64,000 nucleotides of DNA from Alphaproteobacteria bacterium (lineage in GTDB: Bacteria; Pseudomonadota; Alphaproteobacteria; Ferrovibrionales; Ferrovibrionaceae): the NCBI GenBank assembly GCA_017307375.1, contig JAFKFH010000004.1, positions 434,001 to 498,000 on the forward strand, given 5' to 3'. The notes below the pieces were generated by a model. It saw only the letters and a list, made by a program, of their open reading frames with translations. It did no database searches and had not been told where the DNA came from. A program made the position numbers and the translations under genes. Below are positions 7,876-31,578 of the stretch, piece by piece (positions within the stretch are counted from its first letter, which is position 1; each line of letters opens with the position of its first letter).

Positions 7876-10068
7876 ATGCCGGCCAGCGAAGCCACCGTTC
7901 ACCGCATCTGCCCGTTCTGCGAAGCCTGCTGCGGGCTGGAGCTGAAGGTCGCCGATGGCCGCGTCACCGCGATCCGCGGTCATGACGCCGATGTCCTCAG
8001 CGCCGGCTACATGTGCCCGAAGGGCGTGGCGCTGCGCGACCTGCACGACGACCCGGACCGGCTGCGCCGGCCGCTGATCAGACGCGGCGGCCAGTTCGTG
8101 GAGGCTGGCTGGGACGAAGCCTTCGCCGAGATCGACCGCCGCCTGCCGCCGCTGATCGGCGCGCATGGCCGCAACGCGGTCGCCACGGTGCTGGGCAACC
8201 CTACCGCCCACAAGGCCGGGCTCTTGCTCTATGGCGCGCGGCTCGGGCGGGCGCTGGGCAGCCAGAACGTCTTTTCGGCCTCGACCCTCGACCAGATGCC
8301 GCGCCAGCTGGCCGCCGGGCTGATGTATGGCCATTGGCTGTCGATCCCGGTGCCCGACATCGACCGGTCGGACTACCTGCTGGTGATCGGCGCCAACCCG
8401 CTCGCCTCGAACGGGTCGATGTGGACGGTGCCCGATTTCCGCGGCCGGGCCCGCGCGCTGCAGGCGCGCGGCGGCCGGCTCGTCGTCGTCGACCCGCGGC
8501 GGACCGAAACCGCCGACGTCGCCGACCGCCACCTGTTCATCCGCCCGGGCGGCGACGTGTTCTTCCTGCTCGGTCTGGTCCACGCACTGTTCGACGAGGA
8601 TCTGGTGCGGCTCGGCCGGGCCGGGGCCTGCGTGGCCGGCCTCGACCAGGTGCGGCCTGCCGTCGCCGGCTTCGCGCCCGAGGCCGTGGCCGCGCGCTGC
8701 GGCATTGCCGCGGCCGATATCCGCGGCCTGGCGCGCGAGCTTGCCGCCGCGCCGCGCGCCGCCGTCTATGGCCGGATCGGCACCTGCACCCAGGAATACG
8801 GCACGCTGGCCAATTGGGCGATCGACCTGCTGAACGTGCTGACCGGCCGCCTCGACGAGGAGGGCGGCATCATGTTCCCGAAGGCGCCGGCCTTCGCGGC
8901 CAATACCGCCGGGGCGCCCGGCAGCGGGTGCGGCGTGACGACGGGCCGGCGCCGGTCGCGGGTATCCGGCGCGCCGGAAGTGTTCGGCGAGTTTCCGCTG
9001 ACCTGCCTGGCCGAGGAGATCGAGACACCGGGCGACGGGCAGGTCAGGGCGCTGATCGCGATTGCCGCCAATCCCGTCCTCTCGGCGCCGAATGGCGCGC
9101 GACTGGCCGCGGCACTCGACCGGCTCGACTTCATGGTCAGCCTCGACATCTACCTGAACGAAACCTCGCGCCATGCCGACGTGATCCTGCCCGGGCTGTC
9201 GCCGCTCGAGGACATCCACTACGACGTACCGTTTCCGCAGCTCGCCTGCCGCAACTACGCCCGCTTCAGCGAGGCGACGCTGCCGCGCGACCCGGACCGC
9301 CCGGCCGAGTGGGAGACATTGTTGCGCCTTGCCGCGATCGTCGAGGGGCGCGGGGCCGGGATCGACGTCCACGCCTATGACGACGAGCTGTTCAACGCCG
9401 AACTCGGCCGCCTCGCCGGGGACCGCGCCGCGGCGATCGCCGACGCGGTGGCGCCACGGCGCGGCCCGGAGCGGCTGATCGATCTCGCATTGCGCCAGGG
9501 CCCCTACGGCCTGACGCTCGACGCGGTGCGTAAGGCACCGGGCGGCATCGACCTCGGCCCGCTCAGCCCCCGCCTGCCCGAGGTGTTGCGCACGCCATCG
9601 GGCATGGTCGAACTGGCCCCGCCGCCGCTCCTCGCCGATCTGGCCCGTGCGGCGGCCGATCTCGGCCGGCCGGCGCCCGATCTCGTCATCATCGGCCGCC
9701 GCCATGTGCGCTCGAACAACTCCTGGATGCACAACCTGCCGGTACTGGCCAAGGGCCCGTTCCGCTGCACGGCGATGGTGCATCCCGCCGATGCCGGCCG
9801 CCTCGGCCTCACCGATGGCGGCCGGGCGCGAATCGCGCGCGCCGACCGGGCGATCGAGGTGATGGTGGAAGTTTCCGATGCGATGATGCCGGGCGTGGTC
9901 AGCCTGCCCCACGGCTGGGGCCACGACCTGCCGGGCATCCGCCTCGGCCTGGCGGCCCAGCGACCGGGGGCGAACCTGAATGCGCTGCTCGACGAAGATC
10001 TGCGCGATCCGCTGTCCGGCAACGCCGTGCTCGGCGGTGTCGAGGTGACGATGCAGCCCTTGGGCTGA
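7876..10068 (+). CDS. Molybdopterin-dependent oxidoreductase (formate-dehydrogenase-like)
   Basis: The 730-residue product starts with a [4Fe-4S] motif: Cys12, Cys15, Cys19 and Cys47 (CPFCEACC, then MCPKG). The MopB catalytic domain follows and a C-terminal molydopterin-binding domain (GRRHVRSNNSWMHNLP, then LPHGWGHDLPG) ends the protein. At the position where formate dehydrogenases carry Cys or Sec, the local sequence is STLDQMPRQ, with no Cys or Sec, so the substrate may not be formate. No beta subunit, chaperone or cofactor gene is adjacent. The start at 7876 follows AGGGAGG with a 9-base gap; the upstream ATG at 7822 has no such site. Confidence 0.8.
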   Translation: MPASEATVHRICPFCEACCGLELKVADGRVTAIRGHDADVLSAGYMCPKGVALRDLHDDPDRLRRPLIRRGGQFVEAGWDEAFAEIDRRLPPLIGAHGRNAVATVLGNPTAHKAGLLLYGARLGRALGSQNVFSASTLDQMPRQLAAGLMYGHWLSIPVPDIDRSDYLLVIGANPLASNGSMWTVPDFRGRARALQARGGRLVVVDPRRTETADVADRHLFIRPGGDVFFLLGLVHALFDEDLVRLGRAGACVAGLDQVRPAVAGFAPEAVAARCGIAAADIRGLARELAAAPRAAVYGRIGTCTQEYGTLANWAIDLLNVLTGRLDEEGGIMFPKAPAFAANTAGAPGSGCGVTTGRRRSRVSGAPEVFGEFPLTCLAEEIETPGDGQVRALIAIAANPVLSAPNGARLAAALDRLDFMVSLDIYLNETSRHADVILPGLSPLEDIHYDVPFPQLACRNYARFSEATLPRDPDRPAEWETLLRLAAIVEGRGAGIDVHAYDDELFNAELGRLAGDRAAAIADAVAPRRGPERLIDLALRQGPYGLTLDAVRKAPGGIDLGPLSPRLPEVLRTPSGMVELAPPPLLADLARAAADLGRPAPDLVIIGRRHVRSNNSWMHNLPVLAKGPFRCTAMVHPADAGRLGLTDGGRARIARADRAIEVMVEVSDAMMPGVVSLPHGWGHDLPGIRLGLAAQRPGANLNALLDEDLRDPLSGNAVLGGVEVTMQPLG

Positions 10069-10082
10069 AGACGGTGGAGAGT

Positions 10083-10156
10083 TGGAGGCCCGACCCGGAA
10101 TCGAACCGGGGTAAACGGATTTGCAGTCCGGTGCGTAGCCACTCCGCCATCGGGCC
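10083..10156 (-). tRNA. tRNA-Cys (GCA)
   Basis: On the minus strand the acceptor arms GGCCCGA and TCGGGCC pair fully, followed by discriminator U and an encoded CCA. The anticodon loop reads CTGCAAA with anticodon GCA, and the T loop GTTCGATTC is standard. U73 is the expected discriminator for tRNA-Cys. The 5' end faces the phage-derived element. Confidence 0.95.
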
Positions 10157-10161
10157 ACCGG

Positions 10162-10202
10162 GCCTCCGTGGGCGCTGGTTTTATGTGCCTCCGTCGGCGC
10201 TG
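10162..10202. repeat. Direct repeat of 16 bases upstream of tRNA-Cys
   Basis: GCCTCCGTGGGCGCTG (10162-10177) is repeated as GCCTCCGTCGGCGCTG (10187-10202), with one mismatch. The pair lies between the tRNA-Cys 5' end and the AT-rich DNA that opens the foreign region. It could be a remnant of an insertion junction or a promoter element for the tRNA. No third copy was seen at the other end of the element. Confidence 0.5.
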
Positions 10203-10325
10203 TCAAACAGATAACGCGTTGAGCCGCACCATTGAGCCCAAAATAGCTCGATTAAAATGATGTAATAAAGAAGTTAGCTATTGATAGTCAGAAATAAGTC
10301 TAATGCGAGAAACAAAAGCCATAAT

Positions 10326-11270
10326 TTAATACCGTGGTGATGGAAATATAAATAAATGAGTCGCTCCATCATGCCAGTGTATTTTTGGTCTGTCTCTGTG
10401 TGCCAATAAGTTCATACCACTATCAATAGAAAATTGCAGAATATCATAATTTGACCATGGTGTAGTTATGACGCCCTTGTCAGACATCTTGTTTCTCACA
10501 AGTGTTAGTTGCTTTTTTACGTGCTCTGAATTCGATAAGGTTTCATGGAAAAATAAATCAATCTTTTCTTCTATTTTGTCAATTTCATTGACCGAGTCCC
10601 CGAATAAAATAGTGCCAAATTTCGGCTTCACGCTTTCGATGAATAAAATGTTCTTATCTCTATTAATTTCGATCCCGAGATATCTACCAGGATAGCCCTC
10701 GCTTGCATTCCGCTGAAGGGCACGATCAATTATCAGGGCACCCAGGCCTCTGTCTACCCCGGCTTCGATAGTAAGTTGGGGACGTAGGGCGCGCACTAAT
10801 AGATAAAACTTCAGTCTTTTCCCAATCCTTAATACAGGATCATGGAAATATTTCTCGTTAGAATTTGAAATTCGCTCCATTATTTTAAATTTAATCTCAT
10901 CGTCTTCAGCAAGTTCATCCCTGTATGAAATAATTTCTTCGATTCTCCTATTAGAAATATTTGCTATAATGTAGCACAGTTCTATTTGGTTATCCGGCTC
11001 AGTGATATAATTAGATCCGCCATATTCTCGAGACTTAAAAATCCATAATATTATAGCACAGATCTTAGATATAATATTGGATGTATTGATAGCATTTATT
11101 AGCCGCAGTGGCATCAGTAGTGCTAGGCCAATTCCTGTAGATAGAATGAGATTTCTAAAATTGGACTTCATTCTTATATATCCAATATGCTTAGCTAATT
11201 GAAAAATCTGCCACAGATTTCGCTTTTGGTCTAGAGCCTTGCAGGGTGAAAATATGATAATGTTAATCAT
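10326..11270 (-). CDS. AT-rich class I SAM-dependent methyltransferase
   Basis: The ORF encodes up to 314 residues in DNA visibly richer in A+T than everything around it. The middle carries a class I methyltransferase motif I (TIEAGVDRGLGA), then a strand ending in GIEIN at the ribose-binding position, and GTILFGDS. The C-terminus HWHDGATHLFIF is compatible with the same fold. The N-terminus has hydrophobic stretches. The true start is uncertain: the ATG at 11171 (MKSNFRNLIL) is an alternative. The gene lies beyond the terminator of the tail operon, so it has its own promoter. It looks like cargo; a sugar or surface-polysaccharide target is possible but is a guess. Confidence 0.6.
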   Translation of the reverse strand: MINIIIFSPCKALDQKRNLWQIFQLAKHIGYIRMKSNFRNLILSTGIGLALLMPLRLINAINTSNIISKICAIILWIFKSREYGGSNYITEPDNQIELCYIIANISNRRIEEIISYRDELAEDDEIKFKIMERISNSNEKYFHDPVLRIGKRLKFYLLVRALRPQLTIEAGVDRGLGALIIDRALQRNASEGYPGRYLGIEINRDKNILFIESVKPKFGTILFGDSVNEIDKIEEKIDLFFHETLSNSEHVKKQLTLVRNKMSDKGVITTPWSNYDILQFSIDSGMNLLAHRDRPKIHWHDGATHLFIFPSPRY

Positions 11271-11331
11271 GTATCCAGCAACATGTTGGGCGAGTATGAA
11301 ATATTATCATAATATCTTTATGATTCTGAAA

Positions 11332-11364
11332 AACACCGATTTAAGCCAGCTAGTAATCGGTGTT
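11332..11364 (-). terminator. Rho-independent terminator after the tail-fibre gene
   Basis: Perfect 10-bp arms AACACCGATT (11332-11341) and AATCGGTGTT (11355-11364) flank a 13-base loop. Read on the minus strand, the stem is followed by TTTTT, a classical intrinsic terminator. It lies 29 bases past the tail-fibre stop and separates the late operon from the methyltransferase gene. Confidence 0.85.
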
Positions 11365-11392
11365 CTTTGCGGTAGTATTTTTGAATTTTTAT

Positions 11393-14134
11393 CTACACGA
11401 TTTTTAGTGTGCCATTGCTTGACCAAAGAGCTCCAATTGGCAAGCCGGAAGGACTGGTTGGTAAGTTCAAAAGAACTATACTTCCGGATGTTCCATCCGA
11501 TGAGCTGCCCGGAATTAAGTGAATATGCCCACCAGTCGAATATCCGGAAGAATTTCCAGCTTTAATTGTTATGGTTCCACCATACTGGTGCATTCCTGTA
11601 CCGTCGGAAGCTGAAATGTATATAGATCCACCTTTGCCGTTGCTAGAAGTTCCGCCTGAAAGGCTGATGCTCCCAGCATCGCCTGTGATCGAGCCGCCAT
11701 TTCCTCCCCTGATGGCTACATTCCCTGCCACCCCATTGGGACCTGCATCGCCCGCTGTAAGACGAACTGCTCCCCCTTCGCCAGTCAAATCGCCGCTACC
11801 TGCAACGATTGATACTGTGCCGCCCTCGCGCGCCGCTCCCGACGAGCTTCTTGCTAATCCACCCGCAATCAGCACATTTCCGCCGTTCCCGTCGTTGGTC
11901 GGAGCTCCGCCGACGATCCGGACAGTTCCCCCACTGCCGGATAGATCGCCGCCCGCTCCTCCGACAATCTCCGTGCTTCCTCCATTGCTGGTAGATGAGG
12001 CGGTGCCCCCAGCCAGCTTAATTTGTTTCGTCGTCGAGTTAGTCAGCGACAGCCCAGCGCCACCTCCACCAACGAAGCCAACGCTCGCTGTCCCAGCAAA
12101 GTCTGTAGCTGCACGAATTGCAGGTGCAACGATCGGGACTGAAAATTCAGCGTTGCCGCCATCTGCGAATGCTATTTGTTCTTGACCGGCGGAATTTTCG
12201 ACAACAAACACACCTTTTATTCTTGTTTGTCCATTTGTTCCTATTGCAGATTTTCCAGGCCTTAGCGTTATGTTGCCGCCATGTCCAGCACCCGTCGCAT
12301 CACCTGCCGTTATTAGGACATTCCCACCATCGTGATCGCTTCCGCTCGCTGCTGCACCAGAGATTACACAATTTCCCCCGTTTCCATCAGCAGGGGTGCC
12401 GCCAATAAGCTTTGCGTCCCCACCGGTTCCATGCGGCATGATTGCATCACCTCCGATAACTGAGGCGCTACCTGGCAACCCGCTTGAGCCGCTTTGACCG
12501 GCCTTAAGGACTAATGACCCACCAGAGCCACCAAGAACTCCGTTGCCCGCGACGAGTTCTATAGCTCCACCATCGCGACTTGTAGCTGCGATAGTCTGTC
12601 CGGCGGTTCCGCGGATGACAATACTCCCCCCATCCCCTTCCGCGGTATTGCCGCCGACGATCTGCACATTCCCGCCTGTGCCGGCGGTTGCGCTGCCGCC
12701 GCCGATGACGGCGTTGCCGCCGTTGCCGCCGACGGCCCCGCCGCTGCCGCCGACCAGGGAGGCGTTGCCGCCGTTTGCGGTCGTCGACGGGGTTCCCGCC
12801 TTCAGCCGAACGTGACGGGCGGCGGCGTTGACCAGGAACAGGCCGGTATCCGGGGCATTGGCGAAGGCTTGTGCCGGGGCCGATGCGCTGCCGTTCGGCA
12901 GCAGCAGGGGGCCGGTGAACGTGGCGCCGCTGGTGGCCGCAACACCCGAGAGATCGACCGATAGATCGATGTGCTCGTTGCCGCCGGGATTGATCACGGT
13001 CTTGGTGAGGGCGCCCGACACGGTGATCGCGGCGTCGAGCAGTTCCGGCGTCGTATCGGTCGGCGAGATCTTGATGCCGCCCCCGGAGGCCGCCTGGGCG
13101 GCGGCGGCGGCGTCCGCGGCGCTTTGTGCGGCCGCCGCCGCCGCGGCGACGGCCTGGCCCGCCTTCGCTGTCGCGGTGGTGGCCGCCTCGCCGATGCCTG
13201 CCGCCGCCGCCGTCGCCTCGTCCGCCCTGTCGGTGGCGGTCGTCGCGGCGGCCACGGCGGTCACGGCGTGGGTGGCCGCCGTATCGCGCGAGGCGATTGC
13301 CGCGGCCGCCGCCGTGCCGGCCGCGGATGCGGCGGTCGATGCCGTGGCGGCGTCGGTTGTCGCCGACCCGGCGGCACCGATTGCCGCCTGGGCGTGGCTC
13401 GCGGCGCCGTCTGCCTTGGTCGCGGCGATCGCGGCGGCAGTGCCGGCCGCGGTTGCCGAGGCCGCCGCCGCCGCCGCGGCGCCATCGGCGGCGGCAGCCT
13501 GGGCCGTTGCCGTGGTGGCCGCGCCGGCTGCCGCCGCCGCGCGTGCGATCGCCTCGTCGCGGGCGGCGCCGGCCGCCGTCGCGCTGCCGGCCGCCGCGTC
13601 GCGGGCCGACAGCGTTTCGTCACGGGCGGCCGTGGTGGTGGCGGCGGCGGCAGCGGCGGTTTCCGCCGCCGTCGCGGCCTGGCCGGCGCGGGTCGCGGTG
13701 GCCAGCGCATCGGCAGCGGCAGCTGCCGCCTTCTGCGCGGCGGTTGCCGTATCGGCTGCCGCCGAGGCCGCGGCGCTCGCCGCCGCCATGGCCGCATCGG
13801 CCGCGGTCTCGGCATCGGCGGCCACGCCCGCGGCCGCGGTGGCGACCTCGTCGCGCGCGATCTCGGCCGCGATGCGGGCGTCGCGGGCCGCCTGGGCATC
13901 GACCAGCGCGCCGGCCGACGCACCGGTGGCCGCGGTTGCCGCACCGGTCGCTGTCGCCGCTGCCTGGCTTGCGCTGTCGCGGGCGGCTTCGGTCGCTGCC
14001 CGCGCGGACTGGACCGCGGCCGTCGCGTCGACCACCGTCGTTGCCGCCTCGCGCGCGTCGGCCAGCAGATCGGCGACGGTCTCGACGGTCTCGGGCACGG
14101 GATTGATGCCGGTGAAGAAGCCGGAAGTGGTCAT
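11393..14134 (-). CDS. Large tail fibre: Ala-rich shaft plus Gly-Gly repeat tip
   Basis: The 913-residue product has three parts. Residues 1-30 (MTTSGFFTGINPVPETVETV) look like a particle-attachment end. Residues 30-345 are extremely Ala-rich with regular polar residues, as in a long coiled-coil shaft. From about 430 the chain is made of short strands separated by GG (VRIVGG, NVLIAGG, SIVAGSG), like a polyglycine or triple-beta-helix adhesin tip, and it ends GLPIGALWSSNGTLKIV, a common phage-fibre ending. Two halves of the tip (about 430-680 and 690-880) start alike (RLKAGTPSTTANGG, KLAGGTASSTSNGG). I start it at 14134, which has a TTGGAGC site, rather than at 14146. It probably recognises the recipient surface. 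Confidence 0.8.
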   Translation of the reverse strand: MTTSGFFTGINPVPETVETVADLLADAREAATTVVDATAAVQSARAATEAARDSASQAAATATGAATAATGASAGALVDAQAARDARIAAEIARDEVATAAAGVAADAETAADAAMAAASAAASAAADTATAAQKAAAAAADALATATRAGQAATAAETAAAAAATTTAARDETLSARDAAAGSATAAGAARDEAIARAAAAAGAATTATAQAAAADGAAAAAAASATAAGTAAAIAATKADGAASHAQAAIGAAGSATTDAATASTAASAAGTAAAAAIASRDTAATHAVTAVAAATTATDRADEATAAAAGIGEAATTATAKAGQAVAAAAAAAQSAADAAAAAQAASGGGIKISPTDTTPELLDAAITVSGALTKTVINPGGNEHIDLSVDLSGVAATSGATFTGPLLLPNGSASAPAQAFANAPDTGLFLVNAAARHVRLKAGTPSTTANGGNASLVGGSGGAVGGNGGNAVIGGGSATAGTGGNVQIVGGNTAEGDGGSIVIRGTAGQTIAATSRDGGAIELVAGNGVLGGSGGSLVLKAGQSGSSGLPGSASVIGGDAIMPHGTGGDAKLIGGTPADGNGGNCVISGAAASGSDHDGGNVLITAGDATGAGHGGNITLRPGKSAIGTNGQTRIKGVFVVENSAGQEQIAFADGGNAEFSVPIVAPAIRAATDFAGTASVGFVGGGGAGLSLTNSTTKQIKLAGGTASSTSNGGSTEIVGGAGGDLSGSGGTVRIVGGAPTNDGNGGNVLIAGGLARSSSGAAREGGTVSIVAGSGDLTGEGGAVRLTAGDAGPNGVAGNVAIRGGNGGSITGDAGSISLSGGTSSNGKGGSIYISASDGTGMHQYGGTITIKAGNSSGYSTGGHIHLIPGSSSDGTSGSIVLLNLPTSPSGLPIGALWSSNGTLKIV

Positions 14135-14173: not shown

Positions 14174-14404
14174 TCAGGTATGGAAGAGGAGCCTGCCGGC
14201 CATGCCGGCCAGCAGGCTGGTGCCGGCGCCGAGCAGGGTGGCGTAGGCCAGCAGGCGGGTGCGGGCTTCCTCGAGCCCGCGCAGGCGCTTTTCGTGATCC
14301 TTGAGATCGGCCGACAACGCGGTTGATTGCAGGCCGTACATGTCGAGCTTGCCTTCGAGCCGGGCCAGCGCGACGCGCAGCTCGGTCAATTCGTCGCCGC
14401 TCAT
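14174..14404 (-). CDS. Small coiled-coil plus membrane protein (holin candidate)
   Basis: The 76-residue product starts at an ATGA overlap with the adaptor gene. Residues 1-50 are helical and charged (LTELRVALARLEGKLDMYG) and residues 51-72 form one hydrophobic segment (LLAYATLLGAGTSLLAGMAG). This matches the layout of XhlA-type phage membrane proteins and some holins, with the coiled coil on one side of the membrane. It is the only possible lysis gene in the element. The holin role is inferred from size and topology only. Confidence 0.6.
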   Translation of the reverse strand: MSGDELTELRVALARLEGKLDMYGLQSTALSADLKDHEKRLRGLEEARTRLLAYATLLGAGTSLLAGMAGRLLFHT

Positions 14405-15009
14405 CGCACCGCCGCCCAGCCGGCGAGCGGCGCCACCGCCGCATCGTCGAGCACGAGCCGTGCGTTCTGTGCCTCGACGTCGGCCATCACCGCTTCGTAG
14501 CGCGCGGCCCAGCGTTCGCCGCGGGGATCCTCGAAATGCTCGGCGGCGAAGATCAGCGCCGCCCATTCGACGAGGTCGGGCATCGCCGCGAGCAGGCCGT
14601 TGCTGTCGCCGTCGGCGTTCAGCGCCGTCGCGTCGGCGTGATAGCTGTAGCGCAGCGTCGAACCGGCCGGCGGCCGCCCGGCCAGCAGGAAGCTGCCGCG
14701 GTCGCGGGTGTAGACCTGCGGCCGGGCGGCGGCCGGCACGGTGTCGAACGCGGCCCGGCCTACCGGTTCCAGCGCCCGGGGATCGCCGGCATGGTGCAGC
14801 GCGATCATGCCGAGGAAGTCGCCGGGAACGTCGAGCCCGCTGAAGTCGGCGCCGACCTCGACGACGACGGCCTGTTCCATGAACGGCAGGCGCGCGCGGC
14901 GCTGGATCAGGCGGATGCCCTTGTCGACGAAGGCGGCGGTCAGCGCGGGCGTGGTGTCGGTGCGGTTGAGCGTGGCCTCGATCGAGGCCTTGAGGTCGCC
15001 GTAGTTCAT
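14401..15009 (-). CDS. Head-tail adaptor protein (SU10 adaptor-like)
   Basis: The 202-residue product resembles phage adaptor proteins that form the ring beneath the portal. The N-terminus MNYGDLKASIEATLNR is followed by FVDKGIRLIQRRAR, and LRYSYHADATAL with a helical C-terminus (LIFAAEHFEDPRGERW) completes the usual pattern. It is expected to join portal and tail nozzle. Its position two genes after the capsid gene fits the role. The TGA overlaps the next ATG. Confidence 0.7.
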   Translation of the reverse strand: MNYGDLKASIEATLNRTDTTPALTAAFVDKGIRLIQRRARLPFMEQAVVVEVGADFSGLDVPGDFLGMIALHHAGDPRALEPVGRAAFDTVPAAARPQVYTRDRGSFLLAGRPPAGSTLRYSYHADATALNADGDSNGLLAAMPDLVEWAALIFAAEHFEDPRGERWAARYEAVMADVEAQNARLVLDDAAVAPLAGWAAVR

Positions 15010-15373: not shown

Positions 15374-16285
15374 TCAGGCGAGGTTGCTGATCCGACCGGT
15401 GGCTTCCTGGTTGCGATGCTTCAGGCCGTATTCGCCGACCAGCATCCACTGGTTGTTGTCGCCGGTCTTGGCCAGCGGCGTCATCTTCCAGCCGCGCAGC
15501 TTCATCAGCTTCCACATCGAGGGATCGAGGATCAGGGCCTCGGTCGACTTGAGCTGGCGGTTGATCACGACCTTCAGCTCGCCGAACGGCGAAATGTAGA
15601 GATCGACCGCGTTGACCACCTTGCGCTGGGCGGCAATGTCGCGGGTGCGGCCCGAGGCCGCCGCGAAGCCCGAGACGATCAGGCTGTCGGCCGGCTTGAT
15701 CATCAGGGTGGTCACGTCCTCCGACCCCTTTTCGTAGAGGGTCTGGTGCAGGCCCAGGATGTCGCCCTCCTGCAGCGCGCGGGGCTGGTTGCCGGCGCTG
15801 CCGGCATCGCCGTCGACGATGCGCGTGACCGACGCTGCGATCTGCGACAGCGCCGAGGCGAAGCGGCGCGGGGTGGCGGCATCGCCGGTCACCGCCGCCT
15901 GCAACACGCCGACACAGGCGCGTTCGAGATCGCGCTTGATCTCCTTGCCCTTCTTGGCCGCCTGGTAGGAGCTTTCCTTGGCCCGGCCATGCGTCTGCAC
16001 CGCATCGGCCGTCTCCGACACCTTGACCGTCTTTTCGAAGATCTGGACGGTGTTGGTCCGCATTACCGTCGGGGTTACGCTGCCCGAGGCGGCATCGAAG
16101 CCTTCGACCCGGGCATTGTCGGCCGGGTCGGCCAGCGCGTCTTCCTGCCACTCGTAGACGCGCGCCTTGGTGGTCTCCTCGCCGATCGAGGAGATGAACG
16201 GCGTCGAGGTCGGCGAAAGATTGGAGATGACGTCGTCGACGTCCTCGGCAAGGCCGACCTGGTCGTAGGTGGTGATCTGTGACAT
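15374..16285 (-). CDS. Major capsid protein (SU10/DUF5309 type)
   Basis: The 303-residue product matches the DUF5309 major head protein family: the N-terminal TSTPFISSIGEETTKARVYEW and DALADPADNARVEG are the family's most recognisable stretch. Later blocks (LMIKPADSLIVSGFA, YISPFGELKVVINRQL) fit an HK97-fold shell protein. Length is usual for the family. An AAGGAAA site precedes the ATG. The gene follows the scaffold gene and precedes a strong hairpin, as in T7-like late operons. Confidence 0.88.
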   Translation of the reverse strand: MSQITTYDQVGLAEDVDDVISNLSPTSTPFISSIGEETTKARVYEWQEDALADPADNARVEGFDAASGSVTPTVMRTNTVQIFEKTVKVSETADAVQTHGRAKESSYQAAKKGKEIKRDLERACVGVLQAAVTGDAATPRRFASALSQIAASVTRIVDGDAGSAGNQPRALQEGDILGLHQTLYEKGSEDVTTLMIKPADSLIVSGFAAASGRTRDIAAQRKVVNAVDLYISPFGELKVVINRQLKSTEALILDPSMWKLMKLRGWKMTPLAKTGDNNQWMLVGEYGLKHRNQEATGRISNLA

Positions 16286-16324: not shown

Positions 16325-17308
16325 CTAGCCGCGCCGTGCCGTCATCCGGGCGAAGATCGCGGCTGCCGCGTCCTCGACGCTGCCGGTTTGTTTCAGCCGC
16401 GACATCGCCTTGTCGGCCGCGGCCGATCCGGGGCCGGCCTTGGCCGGCGCGCCGGTCGTCCTGACCGGACTGGCGCTGCGCGCCGCGGCCCGGGTCTTGA
16501 CCGGCCCCTGGGCCTTGATCGCATCGTAGCGGCTGGCCTTGTAGACCATCTGGATGATCGCCGGATTGACCCAGCCGTCGACCTCGTCCTGGGGGAAGCC
16601 CTGGGCCACGGCATAGGCCCTGATGCCGTCATAGGTCTCGGGCGACCAGCGGCCGCCGGCCTGGGCGATCCGCTCGCGGATCTCGGGCAGGGCCGCCACG
16701 GCCGCCTCGCGCAACGCCTCGACACGGCCGGCCTTGGCCCGGTCATGCAGGCGGACGGCTTCCTCGGTCAGGAAGTTGTAGTCCTCGTAATGCCGGCGGG
16801 CTTCGGCCCGCAGGGCCTGCAACTCGTCGGGCGACAGCTTCTGCGCCGCGACCAGCCAGTCGATCTGGGCATAGGGCTCGATGCGTTCCTGGGCGCGGCG
16901 GATCAGGGCGTCGAGGGTATAGGCGCTGGCCTCCTCGCGCTCGTCGGCCGCCTTGCGGCGGGCTGCGACTTCCTGCGATTTGCGGGTCAGCGCCGCTTCC
17001 TGGCCCGCCAGCCGCTTCAGGTCGCGGACGGTGACGCGGCGCACCTCGCCGTCGACCACGACCTCGACCTCGGCATCGTCGGCCGGCGGGGTGCGCTCGG
17101 GACCGGCATCTTCCGCCGGCGCATCCGGGCCGTCTTCGGTCTCGGCAAAGGTCTCGTCATCGGCATTGCCGATCTCGGCACCGTCGCCGGCGTCATCGGC
17201 TGGAGCGTCGGGCTCGGCCGTCATCCGGGCGAAGATGGCATCGGCAGCCTGATCCTGGGTCAGGCCGTCGCTGGTCTCCACGGTCCCGTCGGTGGGATTG
17301 GTGGTCAT
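16325..17308 (-). CDS. Capsid scaffolding protein
   Basis: The 327-residue product is acidic and disordered at the N-terminus (residues 20-75, rich in D, E, A and P), then helical through the middle (residues 95-235) and basic near the end. Scaffolds of podoviruses sit between portal and capsid and have this composition. Both ends carry the same short motif, AIFARMTA: once near residue 28 and once in the last 12 residues. The repeat is exact over 20 bases in the DNA (16340-16359 and 17219-17238). The start at 17308 follows CAGGAGTG and gives the acidic N-terminus; longer in-frame starts run back into the preceding gene. Confidence 0.7.
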   Translation of the reverse strand: MTTNPTDGTVETSDGLTQDQAADAIFARMTAEPDAPADDAGDGAEIGNADDETFAETEDGPDAPAEDAGPERTPPADDAEVEVVVDGEVRRVTVRDLKRLAGQEAALTRKSQEVAARRKAADEREEASAYTLDALIRRAQERIEPYAQIDWLVAAQKLSPDELQALRAEARRHYEDYNFLTEEAVRLHDRAKAGRVEALREAAVAALPEIRERIAQAGGRWSPETYDGIRAYAVAQGFPQDEVDGWVNPAIIQMVYKASRYDAIKAQGPVKTRAAARSASPVRTTGAPAKAGPGSAAADKAMSRLKQTGSVEDAAAAIFARMTARRG

Positions 17309-17316
17309 GGTGGGTA

Positions 17317-17589
17317 TCACTCCTGCGCCGTGGCGCCTTGTTCTTCGGGGTGGCCTTCGGCGTCCCAGGCCTTGAGCTGGCCCAGGATCAGTTGAAGACC
17401 GAGATGCTGGTGGAATAGGCTCTCGCGCGTGGCCTGCGCCTCGGGTGCCTGGGCCACGATCTGGTCGCGCAGATCGGTCATCACCGCCTCGAAGGCCTCG
17501 ATCACCGCCGGCTGGGCCAGCAGGATGCGGGCGCGCAAGGCGCGCTCGACGACCGCGATATGGGCATCGTCCGGCTGATGCACCGTCAT
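17317..17589 (-). CDS. Small helical protein after the portal gene
   Basis: The 90-residue product begins MTVHQPDDAHIAVVERALRA and is helical throughout (ESLFHQHLGLQLILGQLKAW). It starts at an ATGA that overlaps a stop codon at 17586-17588 in the frame expected for the portal C-terminus. As the sequence stands, this ORF is also in frame with the main portal ORF, so without a frameshift the two would be one fused chain. No function is recognised. Confidence 0.55.
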   Translation of the reverse strand: MTVHQPDDAHIAVVERALRARILLAQPAVIEAFEAVMTDLRDQIVAQAPEAQATRESLFHQHLGLQLILGQLKAWDAEGHPEEQGATAQE

Positions 17590-19560
17590 CGGCCGTCCCC
17601 CTGTATGGCTTCGGCCAACTCCAGCCCGATCTCGGCCTCGTCGATGCGCTCCTTGTGGTCCTGCTTGCGGGCATCGAGAGCCGCCCGCATCAGGCTCAGC
17701 ATGGTTCAGCGCGGCCATCTTCTCGACCTGGTCCTGCTGGCGCAGCATCACCTGATTCTGGATCTGCATCTGGCTGAGGGCCGCCCGCATGGTTTCGAGC
17801 TGGATGGCCTGGGCCGGATCCGGCGGCGGCGCCGGGGGTGGGGGTGGCGGATCGGCCGCGAGATAGGGGGATGGATCCTTGATCCCGAACCGCTTCAGAT
17901 ACTCGGCGACGAGGGCCTGTCGCTGGCCCGGCCCGTAGAGCGGCGACAGCACCGGGTCGCCGGCCAGCAGGCCGTGCAGCGCCAGGAACAGTTGCGCTTC
18001 CTTCTCCTGCTCGCCATAGCCGATGCGGGCGCTGGCCCGCACCTTGGTGCGGCCGCCCCACTCTGCCGGCGAGACCGCATTCCAGCCGCCGGCGACGTCG
18101 AACAGGCGGCCGCGATCCTCGTTGGCGATGACCACGGCATAGACCTTGAGGTACAGGCCCTTGAGGAAATCCTCGATGAAGTTGCGGGCCATGACTTTCG
18201 CCCGCTGCATCGACAACGTGGTCAGCTGGCCGACCAGGGCCGCCGAATTCTGCCTGGAGATCGCATCCTTGTTCAGGCCCTGGGCAAGCCGCGAGACGCC
18301 GGTCACGTCCTCCTTGTCGGCATCCATCAACTGGACCGTCTCGAACACGTAGGGATTGAGCGGCGCCTGGACCATCGGCGTGATCGCGTCCGGCCGGGTG
18401 ACGTTGACGATGCCGCCGAAGCGGTTGTCGATCAGCTCGCGCGGGTTGACCAGGCCGCCCTTGACCACGACAAAGCGCGGGTTGTTGGTCACCGCCGCGT
18501 GATTGAGGATCGATCGGGTCAGGACGGTCTTGGCGTTCTGCACCGCCACCACCTTGTCGGCATAGTTCGATCCGAAGGCGGCATGGGGACGGCGCAGCAG
18601 GTTGCAGGCGACGAACGGATCGTCGGCGACCTGATCGCAGCGCAGGACGCTTCGTCCTGACACCACGATGTTCCAGAGCTTGGGCCGCGTCGCGTCGAGA
18701 TTGGCCGTCAGATAGCAATCGTAGACCCATAGCCTGGCCGTGTCGGCGTCGCCCGGCATGTCGTCGCCGAACGGCCAGGCACCGGTGACCCTGTGCCGCT
18801 CCATGGTTTCGGCGGCGACGTCCCAGTCGCCGCCTTCCGCCGGAAGATCGTCGATCAGCCGGGCGGGAAATCCTTCCGCCTTCAGCTGGGCACGGGTCTT
18901 GCGCGTGCGGCGGCCCTTGAAGACGCCGCGTTCGTTGGCGTCGCGTTCGCCGGCGCGCAGCAGGAATTCCTCGGGCGGCACGTTCTCGATCCGGCATTGC
19001 GCGCGGGAAATGCGCCGGGTCAGCGTGCCGGCGAGCATGCCGCCCTCGTCGCGGTCGATGGTGAAATCGACAATGTCGTCCGCATCGCTCAGCGCGGCGG
19101 CCAACTGGTCGGCGCTGGCCTGCTCGAAGGTCTCGGTCCGCTCCTCGGTGGCGGCGTCCCAATAGATCTGGACGACGCCGAGCCGGGCGGTGAGGCTGTC
19201 GTGGATGACGTCGTGAAAGATGCGATAGCCCGGGTTCTGCCGGAAGACGACGAAGTCGGTGAATTCGGTCGCCTGGCGGGCCATTGCCACATCCTCCGGC
19301 CCCTGCGGCTCGAACTCGATCAGGTCATGGCTGCCGCCGAAGGTTTCGAGCAGATTGGCCTTGACGCCCTCCACCGCGTTGTAGACGTCCTGCGAGACAT
19401 AGCTGGCGCCGCCGCGATGCTGCGGCAGCGGCTTTTCGCCGTCGTAATAGGCCTGCACCTTCTCGCGCTCGGTGGCGAGCGTGCGGTCGAGATGGCCGAC
19501 GCTGTCGCGGATATGGGCGTCCAGCAAGGCGATGATCTCGTCGTCGCGCTTCTTTGTCAT
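17586..19560 (-). CDS. Portal protein, with apparent frameshift near 17703
   Basis: The product has about 655 residues. It starts with helical MTKKRDDEIIALLDAHIRDS and carries portal-family blocks (SYVSQDVYNAVEGVKANLLE, FVVFRQNPGYRIFHDVIHDS, NNPRFVVVKGGLVNP, QNSAALVGQL). It forms the dodecameric vertex through which DNA is packaged. Near residue 620 the frame appears to shift: the open frame continues as a Gly/Arg-rich stretch into the next gene, while the +1 frame gives a charged helix (LMRAALDARKQDHKERIDEA) ending in a stop that overlaps the next ATG. One extra base near 17703 would explain this. The start overlaps the TerL stop (ATGA). Confidence 0.8.
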
Positions 19561-21128
19561 ATCGCCTCGGTATAGAAGTCCTCGATGGGGGGAATGGGGT
19601 CGAAGGCGGCCTCGTGGATGTGGTTGGCCAGCGCCAGTGCCATCACCGCGTCGTCGTGGCAGCCGGCCTCGGCCGTCATCGCCCCGGCACGATTGACCAC
19701 GTAGGTCGTCAGTTCGCGGATCGTCGTCTTGTCGTTCAGCTCGATGGCGCCGTCGCGCAGGGCGGCGCGCAACTGGTCGATGATCAGCGGCTTGCTGCGC
19801 GTGGTCGTCAGGAAGCCGAGATGGGGCGAAACCCTCTCGGCCAGGGTGTCCAGGGCCTGTTCGGTATAGAAATCCGGATAGGCGAGGTCCTTGGCCAGCC
19901 GGGTGCAGGTCAGGATGCCGTGGTTGTTGCGCTCGACGATGATGCGGGCGGTGTTGTAGTGGAGCCCGAGATGGTAGAGCACCTCGGCGAAGTGGTCGGG
20001 GTGCACCCGCTCGCGCCAGACGGCGACCTGGCGCTTGCGGCTGTCGAGGACCTGGGCCACCGACCAGTCGCCGTTGCGCAGGCCCATGCCGACATCCGCA
20101 CCGATGTAGTAGCGCTCGCCCGGATCGTGCAGGCGATAGACGGCAAGCTCGCCGCGGCGATGCGGCTGCCAGACGCTGCCTTCCAGCGCCAGGCGATGCA
20201 GCAGGTCGGGCACGCCTCGCAGCCGCAGTTGCAGGCTTTCGGGGTTGAAGACCGGGCGGCCGGTGGTCAGGAAGGCTTCATCCGGCTCGGCCGGATATTC
20301 CTGGCGGAACAGGTCGAGGCCGTTCTGGGCCACCTTGCGCCGGCGCCACGCCAGTTGCCCGAGGTCGAGGCCGTGACGGTCGGCGAGGGCGGCCTCTTCG
20401 TCGGTCGGGCGGAAATCGGCGGCCGGCTCCTCGCGGTAGTCGGCACTGACGAACCACGGGATGAAGACCGGGACGAAGCCCGACCGGCCCTCGACCGCGT
20501 CCTGCCACAGCTGGTGGAACAGGCCGGTGACGCCGTTGGCGGTGCTCTCGACGTAGACTTCGGTGTCGCCGGCATCCGGCACTGCCTGCATCAGTCCGTT
20601 GAACGTGTCGCGGGCCCGGTGCGGGGGCCAGAACGCCAGCTCGGAGGCATGGACGTAGTTCAGGGTCTCGCCGCGACCGGCACCGTCGGATCCCGCGGTC
20701 GCCACCATGTAGGCGGAATCGAGGGCGGAAAACGACAGTTCGCGCCGCGAGGAATGCCGGGTCTCCGGCCGCAGCGGCGCCGGCATGTTGGCATGATAGC
20801 GCCGCGTCAGGTCGAACAGCGCCTTGGTCGAATCCGCCAGATGGGCGATCACCATCGTCTTGCGGGCGCGGCGCTGGTTGGTCAGCCAGTAGAGACGGGC
20901 GCCGATATAGGTCGACAATCCCTGCTGGCGTGCCTTCAGGACGATCGCGCGAACCCGGCCGGTACGCCGCCGCTGCGCCTCGGCCGCTTCGTGCAGCAGC
21001 CGCTGCGCGGCGTTGAGGCGCAGCGGCGCGATGTGCCCGTCCTTGGTCCGGACCTTCAGGGCGTGACGGGCATAGACCTCGAAGTCGTCGAACAGCAGGC
21101 GCCGGGCGCGGACATGCTCAGGCTTCAT
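19557..21128 (-). CDS. terL: Terminase large subunit
   Basis: The 523-residue product carries a Walker-A-like motif KARQQGLST (65-73), a Walker-B-type strand YVHASE with Glu163, and an RNase-H-fold nuclease with Asp345 (GADVGMG), Glu399 (IIVERNN) and Asp492/Asp493 (CHDDAVMAL). All nuclease acids are present, so both packaging ATPase and cleavage activity could be intact. I start it at MKPEHV (21128); the upstream in-frame start at 21146 adds six residues. It overlaps the previous small ORF by 11 bases and the portal gene by 4. Confidence 0.9.
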   Translation of the reverse strand: MKPEHVRARRLLFDDFEVYARHALKVRTKDGHIAPLRLNAAQRLLHEAAEAQRRRTGRVRAIVLKARQQGLSTYIGARLYWLTNQRRARKTMVIAHLADSTKALFDLTRRYHANMPAPLRPETRHSSRRELSFSALDSAYMVATAGSDGAGRGETLNYVHASELAFWPPHRARDTFNGLMQAVPDAGDTEVYVESTANGVTGLFHQLWQDAVEGRSGFVPVFIPWFVSADYREEPAADFRPTDEEAALADRHGLDLGQLAWRRRKVAQNGLDLFRQEYPAEPDEAFLTTGRPVFNPESLQLRLRGVPDLLHRLALEGSVWQPHRRGELAVYRLHDPGERYYIGADVGMGLRNGDWSVAQVLDSRKRQVAVWRERVHPDHFAEVLYHLGLHYNTARIIVERNNHGILTCTRLAKDLAYPDFYTEQALDTLAERVSPHLGFLTTTRSKPLIIDQLRAALRDGAIELNDKTTIRELTTYVVNRAGAMTAEAGCHDDAVMALALANHIHEAAFDPIPPIEDFYTEAI

Positions 21129-21318
21129 CACCGGCCAGTACGGCATCGAGCAGGGCCTCGGCCGCGGTCAGCGCGATCGCCGTCTTCTGCGTCGGCCTGG
21201 TGCGGGTGTACTCCATCACGGTACGGGCGGCCGCCAGCCGGACGCGATCCTCGGCCGGTGCCCGCATCAGGGCGACGGCCACGGCGAGCGCCTCGCGCGC
21301 CGCGGCATCGTCGGTCAT
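21118..21318 (-). CDS. Small helical protein before TerL (small terminase candidate)
   Basis: The 66-residue product is entirely helical and Ala-rich (AREALAVAVALMRAPAEDRV, RLAAARTVMEYTRTRPTQK). Short helical proteins with an 'RVAAARAVMEY' motif are often found just upstream of terL in prophages, and a small-terminase role is possible but unproven. I use the ATG at 21318, four bases past the previous stop; an upstream start at 21456 would overlap that gene by 134 bases. Confidence 0.5.
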   Translation of the reverse strand: MTDDAAAREALAVAVALMRAPAEDRVRLAAARTVMEYTRTRPTQKTAIALTAAEALLDAVLAGDEA

Positions 21319-26979: not shown

Positions 26980-27007
26980 GTTCCGGCTAACATGTGGCTT
27001 TTAGCGT
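26980..27007 (-). promoter_or_regulatory. Candidate phage RNAP promoter, copy A
   Basis: This 28-base sequence matches 30633-30660 at 27 positions. Its core on the minus strand reads CTAAAAGCCACANGTTAGCC, where N is T here. It ends 12 bases before the collar-fibre ATG. Arms GCTAA and TTAGC, 10 bases apart, also give it partial dyad symmetry, so an operator is the alternative reading. Confidence 0.65.
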
Positions 27008-28066: not shown

Positions 28067-30598
28067 TCAGGCGAAGGCGTAGTCGGCCCGGAGGATGTTC
28101 CGCAGGTCGAGCGAACCGCGGGCCGGCGGCGGCGGCAGCTTGCCGCGCGCTTCAGGGCTCAGCACGGCGCTGGCGGCATGATGGACGACGGCGTAGGGAT
28201 CGAACGTCTCGTAGAGGTCGAACAGCGCCTTGCGGACGGTGACCACCCATTTGCCCGACCGCGCCGCGTGGGTTGCGAAGCTGTCGTGGATCAGGGCGAA
28301 GTCGGCGATACCCTCGCCGGCCGCGGCCAGCACGGCGAGCATCAGATGGCTGGCATCCATCGAATGGATCACGTTCGGGGCAATGGCGGATTTCTGCTTG
28401 GCCCGATCGAGCACGTCGGTCGCCTCGGTGCGCAGCAAGGCCATGACCCGGACATGTACCTGGCCGCCGGTGATGCGGTCATGGGAAGTCGCCGCGGCGA
28501 CCGGAACGGAACGGTCGAGAAAGTGCAGCTTGATGCGCCGCTCGTCCCACTTGCGATAGTCGTGGGCGATCGGCAGGCCGATTGCACTTTGCCAGTGCAG
28601 TCCGTGACCTTCCGAGGCCAACAGGCCGGCAACCTGCTTGAACCACGCCATGCCCGTGCCGGCGCCCGCCACCGCGTCGTTGACCGTCTGCCACAGCAGA
28701 TGGGCCAGATAGCCGGCAGCCGGCCAGCCGCCATCCGTGAACGGGTGTGCCTGCAGGTCGCCGGCCGTGACCCGGTCGGCCAGCGGCTTCATCGTGTCGG
28801 CCATCAATTGCCGGCGAAAGCCGAACTCCTCGGACGAATAGGCGAAGGTCATGACCGATCGCTTGACGGTCGCGCGGGTCACGCCGAACCCCTGCCATTC
28901 GCGGGCCTGGGCGTCGCCTGCGGTCGCGTCGCGCTCGACGCGGTCGGCGACGATCCGTGCCACCTGGCCGTAGATGTCGGTCGGTCGCTCGGCCGGCAGC
29001 AGGTTGACCAGCGCCGCGCCCATGCCGTCGCGCAGCGACGCCGCATAGTGCTGCAGGCCCGAGCAGGAACCGTCCAGCGCTACCGGCAGATGCGAGACGT
29101 GGGCCGCCGGATCGGCGGCCGTGATCGCGCGGGCATAGTCCTGGCAGGCGGCGACGAACTGGAAGGGACTGTCGGCGGCCGACCACCAGCGGATCGTCCC
29201 GATCGGGTCCTCGGCCGTCGCGACGATCCGGTCGAGATGGCGGCCGACCCAGGCGACGCGGTCGTCGAACGATGCCTTCGATATCTTGTCGAAGTCGCCG
29301 GCATTGGCGAGGTGGACGGCAAGCCAGAAGAGGCCGGCGGGGCCGAGCGGAACACCGTCGGCGAATTCCAGCATTCCCCGTACGTGATCGCCGCGCTGCG
29401 GATTGAACGCCGGCACCGGATAGGCGCGGCCGCGAAAATCCAGGCTCTGGGGCATCCAGAACCGATTGCCGCAATCGATCATCAGCTGCGCGGTGGCCAG
29501 ATCCTGCGCGACGACGATGCGGGCGCTGTCGATCGCCCGGTTATGGGCATGGCGTCGCGCCGCTTCGGCCCGCCAGGCCTTGCGCTGTGCCGGCCCCATG
29601 TCCGCCCAGGCCGCCGGGCGCTCCGGGGCGGCGAGGCGCGGGCCGGGCAGGGTCGAACCCTGGGCCAGCAGCCTGCCGCGATGGCAGGTGTCGACCAGTT
29701 CCAGGATCCGTTCGTTGACCCGCCAGGCGGTAGCCTGGATCGCGTTGACCGCCGCGAAAAGCCGTTCGCGGCCCGGCTGTCGCAACCGGGTCCGCATTGC
29801 CTGCCGCTGGCGCCGATCGCGCAGGCGCACCAGCTTGACCTGCCTGGCGGCTTCGGGCGTCAGGTAGGCGCCGGTGTCGAAATCGGTCCATGGCCGCGGC
29901 GGCACGATCATCGGATAATGGGCGGGGCGCGCGAACAGGCCGCCGCGGCGTGTCATCGTCTCGGACGCCTCCGCCGTCAGCCCTAGAAACAGGGTGTCCT
30001 GCGCCGTATAGGTCTCGAACATCCCAGGGCAGGCATGCAGGACGGCGTTGACGAGTGTCTCGCCGACCCGGGCGCGCATCGCGCGGGACCACCCGGTCCA
30101 CGCGAACCCGGCGCGGCGCGCCGCAGCGCGTGCCGCCTTGGCGCGATAGCGCGGATGGCCGTGCCGCTGGCGCACCCGTGTATCGATCCGGCCATGCAGT
30201 TCGGGCGATGCGGCGCGCAGGGCCAGGCTCCAGGCCTCGGTCTCCACCAGTTCGCCGGTTGCTTCGGCAAGGGTTGCGATGGGTCGCTCGGCACCGATGC
30301 CGTTCAGGCAGCCGACCAGGGCTGCCAAGGCCAGCAGGTCGGGCGGCAGCACCCTCAGCCGTGCCACTGACGCATGGGTCTTGCCTCGACCGCCGTTTCC
30401 CAAGGCGTCGAGGTAGTGGCAGATCGCCGTCGCGACCGCGGGCAGGGCGGTGGCGATCAGATGGTCGGACGTCCGGCTGGTGCCGAGGCCGGCTTGCCGC
30501 AGGATCCGCCCGTCCTGCAGGGTCTGGCGCTGCTGACCCAACCTGGCGGATAGCTGCTCCAGTTCGATCTCGAGCGCTGCCTTGTCTGCATGGTTCAT
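28067..30598 (-). CDS. T7-type single-subunit DNA-directed RNA polymerase
   Basis: The 843-residue product matches phage T7 RNA polymerase (883 residues) block by block. DFRGRAYP is at 387-394; motif A LDGSCSGLQHYAASLRD contains Asp509; motif B TVKRSVMTFAYSSEEFGFR contains Lys579 and Tyr587; IAPNVIHSMDASHL is at 739-752; motif C FALIHDSFAT contains Asp772. These equal T7 Asp537, Lys631, Tyr639 and Asp812. Even the C-terminal 'foot' is kept (ADYAFA). The gene looks fully functional. The promoter-contacting loop (about 688-720) differs from T7, so its promoters should differ too. The ATG at 30598 follows GAGGGA; the longer open frame upstream crosses the promoter copy and is not used. Confidence 0.95.
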   Translation of the reverse strand: MNHADKAALEIELEQLSARLGQQRQTLQDGRILRQAGLGTSRTSDHLIATALPAVATAICHYLDALGNGGRGKTHASVARLRVLPPDLLALAALVGCLNGIGAERPIATLAEATGELVETEAWSLALRAASPELHGRIDTRVRQRHGHPRYRAKAARAAARRAGFAWTGWSRAMRARVGETLVNAVLHACPGMFETYTAQDTLFLGLTAEASETMTRRGGLFARPAHYPMIVPPRPWTDFDTGAYLTPEAARQVKLVRLRDRRQRQAMRTRLRQPGRERLFAAVNAIQATAWRVNERILELVDTCHRGRLLAQGSTLPGPRLAAPERPAAWADMGPAQRKAWRAEAARRHAHNRAIDSARIVVAQDLATAQLMIDCGNRFWMPQSLDFRGRAYPVPAFNPQRGDHVRGMLEFADGVPLGPAGLFWLAVHLANAGDFDKISKASFDDRVAWVGRHLDRIVATAEDPIGTIRWWSAADSPFQFVAACQDYARAITAADPAAHVSHLPVALDGSCSGLQHYAASLRDGMGAALVNLLPAERPTDIYGQVARIVADRVERDATAGDAQAREWQGFGVTRATVKRSVMTFAYSSEEFGFRRQLMADTMKPLADRVTAGDLQAHPFTDGGWPAAGYLAHLLWQTVNDAVAGAGTGMAWFKQVAGLLASEGHGLHWQSAIGLPIAHDYRKWDERRIKLHFLDRSVPVAAATSHDRITGGQVHVRVMALLRTEATDVLDRAKQKSAIAPNVIHSMDASHLMLAVLAAAGEGIADFALIHDSFATHAARSGKWVVTVRKALFDLYETFDPYAVVHHAASAVLSPEARGKLPPPPARGSLDLRNILRADYAFA

Positions 30599-30632
30599 GG
30601 GGATCCCTCGTTCGCGCCGCTGGCCAGACCGG

Positions 30633-30660
30633 GTTCCGGCTAACCTGTGGCTTTTAGCGT
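30633..30660 (-). promoter_or_regulatory. Candidate phage RNAP promoter, copy B
   Basis: Second copy of the 28-base element, with G at the variable base of the minus-strand core CTAAAAGCCACANGTTAGCC. It ends 34 bases upstream of the polymerase ATG, so the polymerase would transcribe its own gene. The A-rich block followed by CC loosely resembles promoters of T7-like phages such as gh-1. Confidence 0.65.
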
Positions 30661-30921
30661 CGCGAACGATGAGTTCCCTATTTGTTCCAGTAGTTTGAGC
30701 GATCCGATTGAGGCGTCCTGGCAGCTGCCCGCTCGCACTCGCCGAAGACGTCCGGGGCCGTTGCAATGCTGTGCAACAAAAGCCCCGTTGCCGAAGCAGC
30801 CGGGGGGCGATATAAGCCAGTGTACGAGGGCTTACAGTACCGTGTCGGTCTTGCGACCGTGCCGTGGCTCCGCTCGGGGAACTAGAATTCACGCGACGAA
30901 CGACAGTGGAGGTTTCAGCGC
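30661..30921. other. Intergenic control region between phage RNAP and pcm
   Basis: There is no gene here. The stretch holds several short inverted repeats: GTTGCA/TGCAAC (30760-30777) and TAAGCC/GGCTTA (30813-30834). On the minus strand GGAAC (30688-30684) and GTT (30667-30665) are 16 bases apart, resembling the general-stress sigma factor (EcfG) promoter of alphaproteobacteria, next to promoter copy B. The pcm promoter must also lie here. The right edge of the phage-derived DNA falls within this stretch. Confidence 0.45.
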
Positions 30922-31578
30922 ATGGCATCCGTCGATAGCCACGCCGCCGCTCGGCAGAACATGATCGATTGTCAGATCCTGCCCAACCGGGTCACCGACC
31001 CGACGGTGCTGCGTGCCTTTGCCGACGTGCCGCGCGAGCGTTTCGTGCCGGCCTCCCATCAGGGCGTCGCCTATCTCGACAAGGACCTGGCGCTGGGTGG
31101 CGGGCGGGTGCTGATGGAGCCGATGGTTGCCGCCCGCCTGCTGCAGGCGGCCGAGCTGTCCGGGTCGGAAAAGGCGCTCGTCGCCGGTGCCGGGTCGGGC
31201 TATCTCGCGGCGCTGCTCAGCCATATCGTCCGCTCGGTCGTCGCGGTGGAGAACCGGGCCGACCTGCTGGCCCTGGCGCGCGACGCGCTGGCCGACGCGG
31301 CGTCGATCACGCTGGTCGAGGGGGCGCCCGCCGACGGCGCCAAGGCATCGGGCCCCTACGACCTGATCATCCTGGGCGGTGCGGCCGAACAGGTGCCTGC
31401 CGCGCTGTTCGACCAGTTGGCGCCGGAAGGCAAGCTGATCGCGGTCGTTCGCCAGGGCGGCGTCGGCAAGGCCACGCTGTTCACCCGTCCCGGCGGGGTT
31501 CAGGCCGCCCGCATCCTGTTCGACGCGGCGACGCCGGCATTGCCCGAATTCGCCGCACCGAAGGCCTTTGCGCTGTAG
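30922..31578 (+). CDS. pcm: Protein-L-isoaspartate O-methyltransferase
   Basis: The 218-residue product has the Pcm fold: NMIDCQILPNRVTDP near the start, DVPRERFVP, and the SAM motif ALVAGAGSGYLAALLS. The enzyme methylates isoaspartate in damaged proteins. In many alphaproteobacteria this form of Pcm is encoded upstream of tolC, popZ and valS, as here. A GTGGAGG site precedes the ATG. It is the first host gene beyond the phage-derived element. Confidence 0.85.
   Translation: MASVDSHAAARQNMIDCQILPNRVTDPTVLRAFADVPRERFVPASHQGVAYLDKDLALGGGRVLMEPMVAARLLQAAELSGSEKALVAGAGSGYLAALLSHIVRSVVAVENRADLLALARDALADAASITLVEGAPADGAKASGPYDLIILGGAAEQVPAALFDQLAPEGKLIAVVRQGGVGKATLFTRPGGVQAARILFDAATPALPEFAAPKAFAL

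Follow-up and report, generated by a model that had tools for sequence, protein, structure and literature searches.

Pseudogenes that arise in prophages by small indels are ordinary. The portal gene described here likewise carries a single small indel in a conserved late gene, with no feature to distinguish it from that class. SU10, the closest described particle system, is a phage with a 77-kb genome (PMC9509320, PMC4281155); the element considered here is a 20.8-kb chromosomal insert. Its portal belongs to the same family as that of SU10 over residues 9-593, and its capsid and adaptor proteins also match SU10 families. Unlike the SU10 portal, the window gene is without a normal C-terminus from codon 621. 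(The window is the whole 64,000-nucleotide stretch of DNA that was analyzed; coordinates refer to it unless otherwise indicated.) The portal gene of what is best read as a cut-down prophage has probably undergone a real, recent and damaging frameshift. This would be gene damage of an ordinary kind; a sequencing slip is the less likely alternative, and the window portal does not represent a new kind of protein.

The SU10-type insert

The insert (10157-30921, ends approximate) lies between tRNA-Cys (10083-10156) and pcm (30922). The interval between these divergent genes is 73-289 bases long in 17 of 19 relatives, as against 20,765 bases here. The gene content comprises terminase, portal, scaffold, capsid, adaptor, ejection-like and tail genes together with a T7-like RNA polymerase. 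All of the following are encoded on the minus strand: the terminase large subunit (TerL; 19557-21146; phrog_2, E 1.4e-29, and others, with no Pfam match), the head scaffolding protein (16325-17311; phrog_3927, E 1.6e-24), the major capsid protein (15374-16285; PF17236 SU10_MCP, 1.6e-82), the head-tail adaptor (14401-15009; PF24175 SU10_adaptor, 7.7e-21) and the T7-like single-subunit RNA polymerase (28067-30598, start codon assigned by eye; PF00940, 5.8e-96; phrog_414, 4.4e-196).

The features by which an intact temperate prophage would be recognized (an integrase with attachment repeats, and replication genes) were not recognized in the insert. The PF00589 integrase profile has no match within it, and on contig C38, of which the window is 434001-498000, matches only at 19,542 and 316,335. 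No direct repeats of at least 18 bases join the insert ends, and no 11-mer is common to 9901-11450 and 30551-31050. No replication gene was recognized among the insert ORFs scanned; the only DNA_pol_A gene of the genome lies elsewhere. The insert lacks the T7-type replication block that a related element in another genome (G228) carries, located there between the collar and polymerase genes. Since it has neither a PF00589 integrase match nor a recognized replication gene, the insert is best read, judging from gene content, as a cut-down prophage, where breakage of a late gene would carry no penalty. The missing block and the otherwise empty insertion site fit a non-propagating remnant.

A pair of 28-base sites that differ at a single position is located at 26980-27007, just ahead of the late operon, and at 30633-30660, just ahead of the T7-like RNA polymerase gene; they are the only two such sites in the genome when 3 mismatches are allowed. 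These are candidate promoters of the T7-like RNA polymerase. The window's genome (G000) also has another T7-like RNA polymerase gene with an open frame (L086; G000:C16:746,959-749,193), ~60% identical in its main part. It stands alone, in that no other insert gene was matched in the surrounding 80 kb.

Reading frames at the portal end

A frame of 747 codons is open on the minus strand from 19560 to 17317, so that the portal ORF takes in the whole of the ORF with its ATG at 17589. The part that is in frame with relatives (17701-19560, minus strand; 620 codons) is assigned to phrog_1216 (portal), and its PF23899 SU10_portal match scores 477 bits over residues 9-593 (curated cut-off 30). Residues 621-657 in the same frame are Gly/Arg/Pro-rich (Gly or Pro at 13 of 37 positions; pI 11.6), and residue 658 of the fused ORF is the ATG of the downstream 90-residue ORF (17317-17589, minus strand), for which there is no Pfam or PHROG match.

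A different product is specified by the alternative frame of the same DNA (17699-17589, minus strand): 37 residues, of which 15 are charged and only 3 are Gly or Pro. The stop codon of this frame (17588-17586) overlaps the ATG at 17589, and the overlap is of the same ATGA type as that joining TerL to the portal at 19560-19557. The true portal C-terminus (17586-17699, minus strand; 37 codons and stop) accordingly lies in a frame other than that of the portal start, and the C-terminal helical region that is complete in PF23899-type relatives is not complete in the window protein. Codon usage points the same way: in a direct three-frame score of the 37-codon stretch the helix frame is given +13.8 nats, the fused frame -7.4 and the third frame -43.2, and the preference changes at the junction itself. 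The preliminary description, which had reported the open frame, its Gly/Arg/Pro-rich stretch and fusion, the charged helix in another frame and an overlap like those of neighboring genes, is borne out on all of these points.

The decisive comparison is with L011, a metagenome contig (IMG/VR IMGVR_UViG_3300006450_000014) found by a scan of viral_contigs and the sole near-identical relative known. L011 is 99.1% identical to the window over its full length of 6,202 bases, which extends from the small-terminase region to beyond the capsid gene, with 51 substitutions and a single indel. That indel falls at the portal junction (17699-17700, minus strand), where the window is shorter by two bases, a difference that is not divisible by three and thus of the kind that breaks a gene by frameshift. 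L011 has an intact portal of 658 residues, 99% identical to the in-frame part of the window portal, which ends in the conserved tail and is followed, after an ATGA overlap, by a separate 90-residue ORF. L011 portal residues 622-658 are 100% identical to the alternative frame of the window (E 9.9e-15), a match that places the conservation of the tail frame beyond chance. When searched against G000, the L011 portal matches in one frame over residues 1-621 and in another over residues 622-658; the frame change therefore belongs to the window. On this alignment a frame difference from a near-identical intact relative is shown, as is a conserved tail that has been left out of frame. The preliminary description had placed a single extra base at the C-C of a minus-strand AACCATG. 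Its removal would restore the right frame, but L011 is two bases longer at 17700/17699 and encodes an additional residue compared with the product expected from a one-base change, so that a one-base insertion is unsupported by the comparison.

Might ribosomes switch frame at the junction, so that the normal tail is made at some rate? The tail frame does remain intact downstream of the junction, but L011 reads straight through and needs no frame change. No programmed frameshift signal is therefore ancestral, and inspection by eye recognized no known slippery sequence at the junction. Programmed frameshifting is extremely unlikely, the least probable of the explanations considered.

An assembly error, in which the strain is intact and two bases were dropped from its assembled sequence, is the main rival but is still unlikely. 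It would account for the fact that the sole indel in 6,202 bases falls inside a gene otherwise kept by selection, and L011 has a short tandem repeat at the junction, the kind of place in which slippage can happen. On the other hand, the junction is neither a homopolymer nor a whole repeat unit, and the contig (760 kb) is part of an assembly of 41 contigs with 100% completeness. The usual sequencing error is, moreover, a single-base one, for which a two-base drop is atypical. A codon-usage Viterbi analysis over 458 kb flagged 16 of 150 same-strand frame changes, most of them with a proper boundary stop. The method is too noisy to bear on assembly quality (it confuses strands at this G+C, assigning a section of the capsid gene to the opposite strand) and it missed the 37-codon portal switch, which only the direct three-frame score detected. 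A real mutation is more likely than a sequence error.

The portion of the protein that is lost can be placed on a model. The L011 portal matches PDB 7z44 (E 4.4e-61), the portal of Escherichia phage SU10, and a profile made from L011 and L012 (a more distant relative, below) aligns with this solved portal through profile position 671 of 676. An AlphaFold model of the L011 portal, weak overall with a mean pLDDT of 62, has a single helix at residues 582-653, with block-mean pLDDT of 67-76 over residues 601-650. Placed on this model, the window protein has its helix cut at residue 620, with the Pfam portal domain (residues 9-593) untouched. The consulted parts of the SU10 paper (PMC9509320) give no residue limits for the portal C-terminus, and a role for the lost part of the helix is for that reason inferred. 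The two-base loss would shift the frame at codon 621 in the portal gene of a chromosomal SU10-portal-type element, and the end of the long C-terminal helix would be swapped for an unselected Gly/Arg-rich stretch, followed by the 90-residue product. Translation of the 90-residue protein may nevertheless start at its own ATG, upstream of which lies a purine-rich stretch. The change presumably sits in the living genome, is recent, and would impair or abolish particle assembly.

Portal ends in relatives

Portal ends were inspected at 16 loci, including L011; one (L020) is unreadable, leaving 15. (Repeat fetches of the same places are excluded from this count, as are L027-L031, which are weak, partial or own-genome matches). 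The portal is fused to the following small protein at none of the 15. In one set of 11 readable loci, which does not include L011, the next ORF encodes 68-96 residues and starts no more than 21 bases from the portal stop at 8; only in L012 is it recognizably homologous to the 90-residue ORF of the window. The L012 portal (683 residues, 54-56% identical) ends in an ATGA overlap with a separate next ORF whose product is 56.9% identical to that of the window (E 3.5e-23), and its tail shares the pattern R-QDH-E-ID-AE with that of L011. The alignment with related portal C-termini that the preliminary description proposed has thus found conserved tails, each followed by a separate next ORF, in L011 and L012.

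These comparisons bear most directly on the proposal that the extension is functional, the portal being deliberately joined to the 90-residue protein through a Gly/Arg linker. In its favor, the fused frame is open over 747 residues and the 90-residue protein is kept in frame. However, the chance of 37 stop-free codons at the local G+C is P ~0.44, so that a shifted frame open into the 90-residue ORF is unremarkable, being expected 44% of the time. The linker, moreover, is an out-of-frame reading of a conserved helix, with poor codon scores. No relative among the 15 keeps a fused frame with a conserved Gly/Arg-rich linker, and a functional extension is therefore very unlikely. It drops out of the options originally listed in the preliminary description, and mutation and sequence error remain.

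The locus that comes closest to a precedent for fusion is L016, which has a portal of 833 residues with a Gly/Pro/Ala-rich end, but this portal has its own stop, overlapping a different, 165-residue ORF. A genome of the same family as the window's has a portal gene (L007; G009:C78) in which similarity ends after residue 519 and a His/Arg-rich tail reaches the next ORF. That ORF starts just upstream of the portal stop, and the capsid gene is only ~440 bases away. There is no room between the portal match and the capsid gene for the missing portal end, the small gene and the scaffold gene, and L007 therefore looks like a deletion of all three, a damage event separate from that of the window.

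Phage records contain no DNA match to the window locus, and by protein only portals of <60% identity. No further close relatives were found in genome_contigs. Scans of viral_contigs returned L011 and L012 (L012 and L013 being one contig), and scans of the same collection with other insert genes yielded one weak polymerase relative and nothing else.

Selection, timing and consequence

Codon differences between the window and L011 comprise 35 synonymous and 15 nonsynonymous changes. The nonsynonymous share expected without selection is 71%, and the observed deficit (P 3e-9) corresponds to a dN/dS-like ratio of 0.18. As far as codon comparison can tell, this 35:15 ratio shows that the genes were under selection until recently. 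Most of the divergence arose while the genes worked, and the frameshift is therefore either recent or absent from the living genome. Relaxed selection on the portal alone was not detected in the same set of differences (5 synonymous and 5 nonsynonymous, as against 30 and 10 elsewhere; P 0.14, not significant). Of five portal changes polarized by eye against L012, 2 are derived in the window, 1 is derived in L011 and 2 are ambiguous.

That the damage is real is supported by the absence of a G228-type replication block from the remnant and by the otherwise empty insertion site, by the damaged-looking portal end of L007, whose genome (G009) belongs to the same family, and by the lack of any second portal copy, none having been found in G000. 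Counting against it, the rest of the window portal and the neighboring genes are well kept, and the element has no other visible decay.

In another account the insert would be a domesticated gene-transfer-agent-like cluster for an SU10-type particle, turned on by its own T7-like polymerase acting at two private promoters, one ahead of the polymerase gene and the other ahead of the late operon. The frameshift would then be a strain-specific off-switch of particle production, and L011-like metagenome relatives would have kept a working version. The gene content, a head-tail cluster without recognized replication or integration genes, fits a gene-transfer agent and the dN/dS-like ratio is 0.18, but the cluster is absent from this site in relatives. 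This account is improbable; if it were true, the window and L011 alleles would constitute a natural on/off pair.

If the portal of a cut-down prophage has been damaged, as is favored here, the finding has little significance as such, frameshifted late genes being ordinary in phage remnants, and its relevance is to annotation. The 747-residue fusion does not warrant an entry of its own as a novel portal architecture, and the true portal C-terminus and the 90-residue gene call for separate annotation.

Several other features of these elements can be recorded. The left end of the insert has an AT-rich ORF of 314 residues (10326-11270, minus strand) without a PHROG match. In the G228 element a group I intron (L052:8306-8543, minus strand; RF00028, 73.8 bits, gathering threshold 50) splits the capsid gene. 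The scaffold gene of the window contains a repeat, present near its start (17217-17248) and at its end (16338-16369), by which each end of the protein has a similar AAxAIFARMTA motif, and the L012 scaffold also has a motif of this type at both ends.
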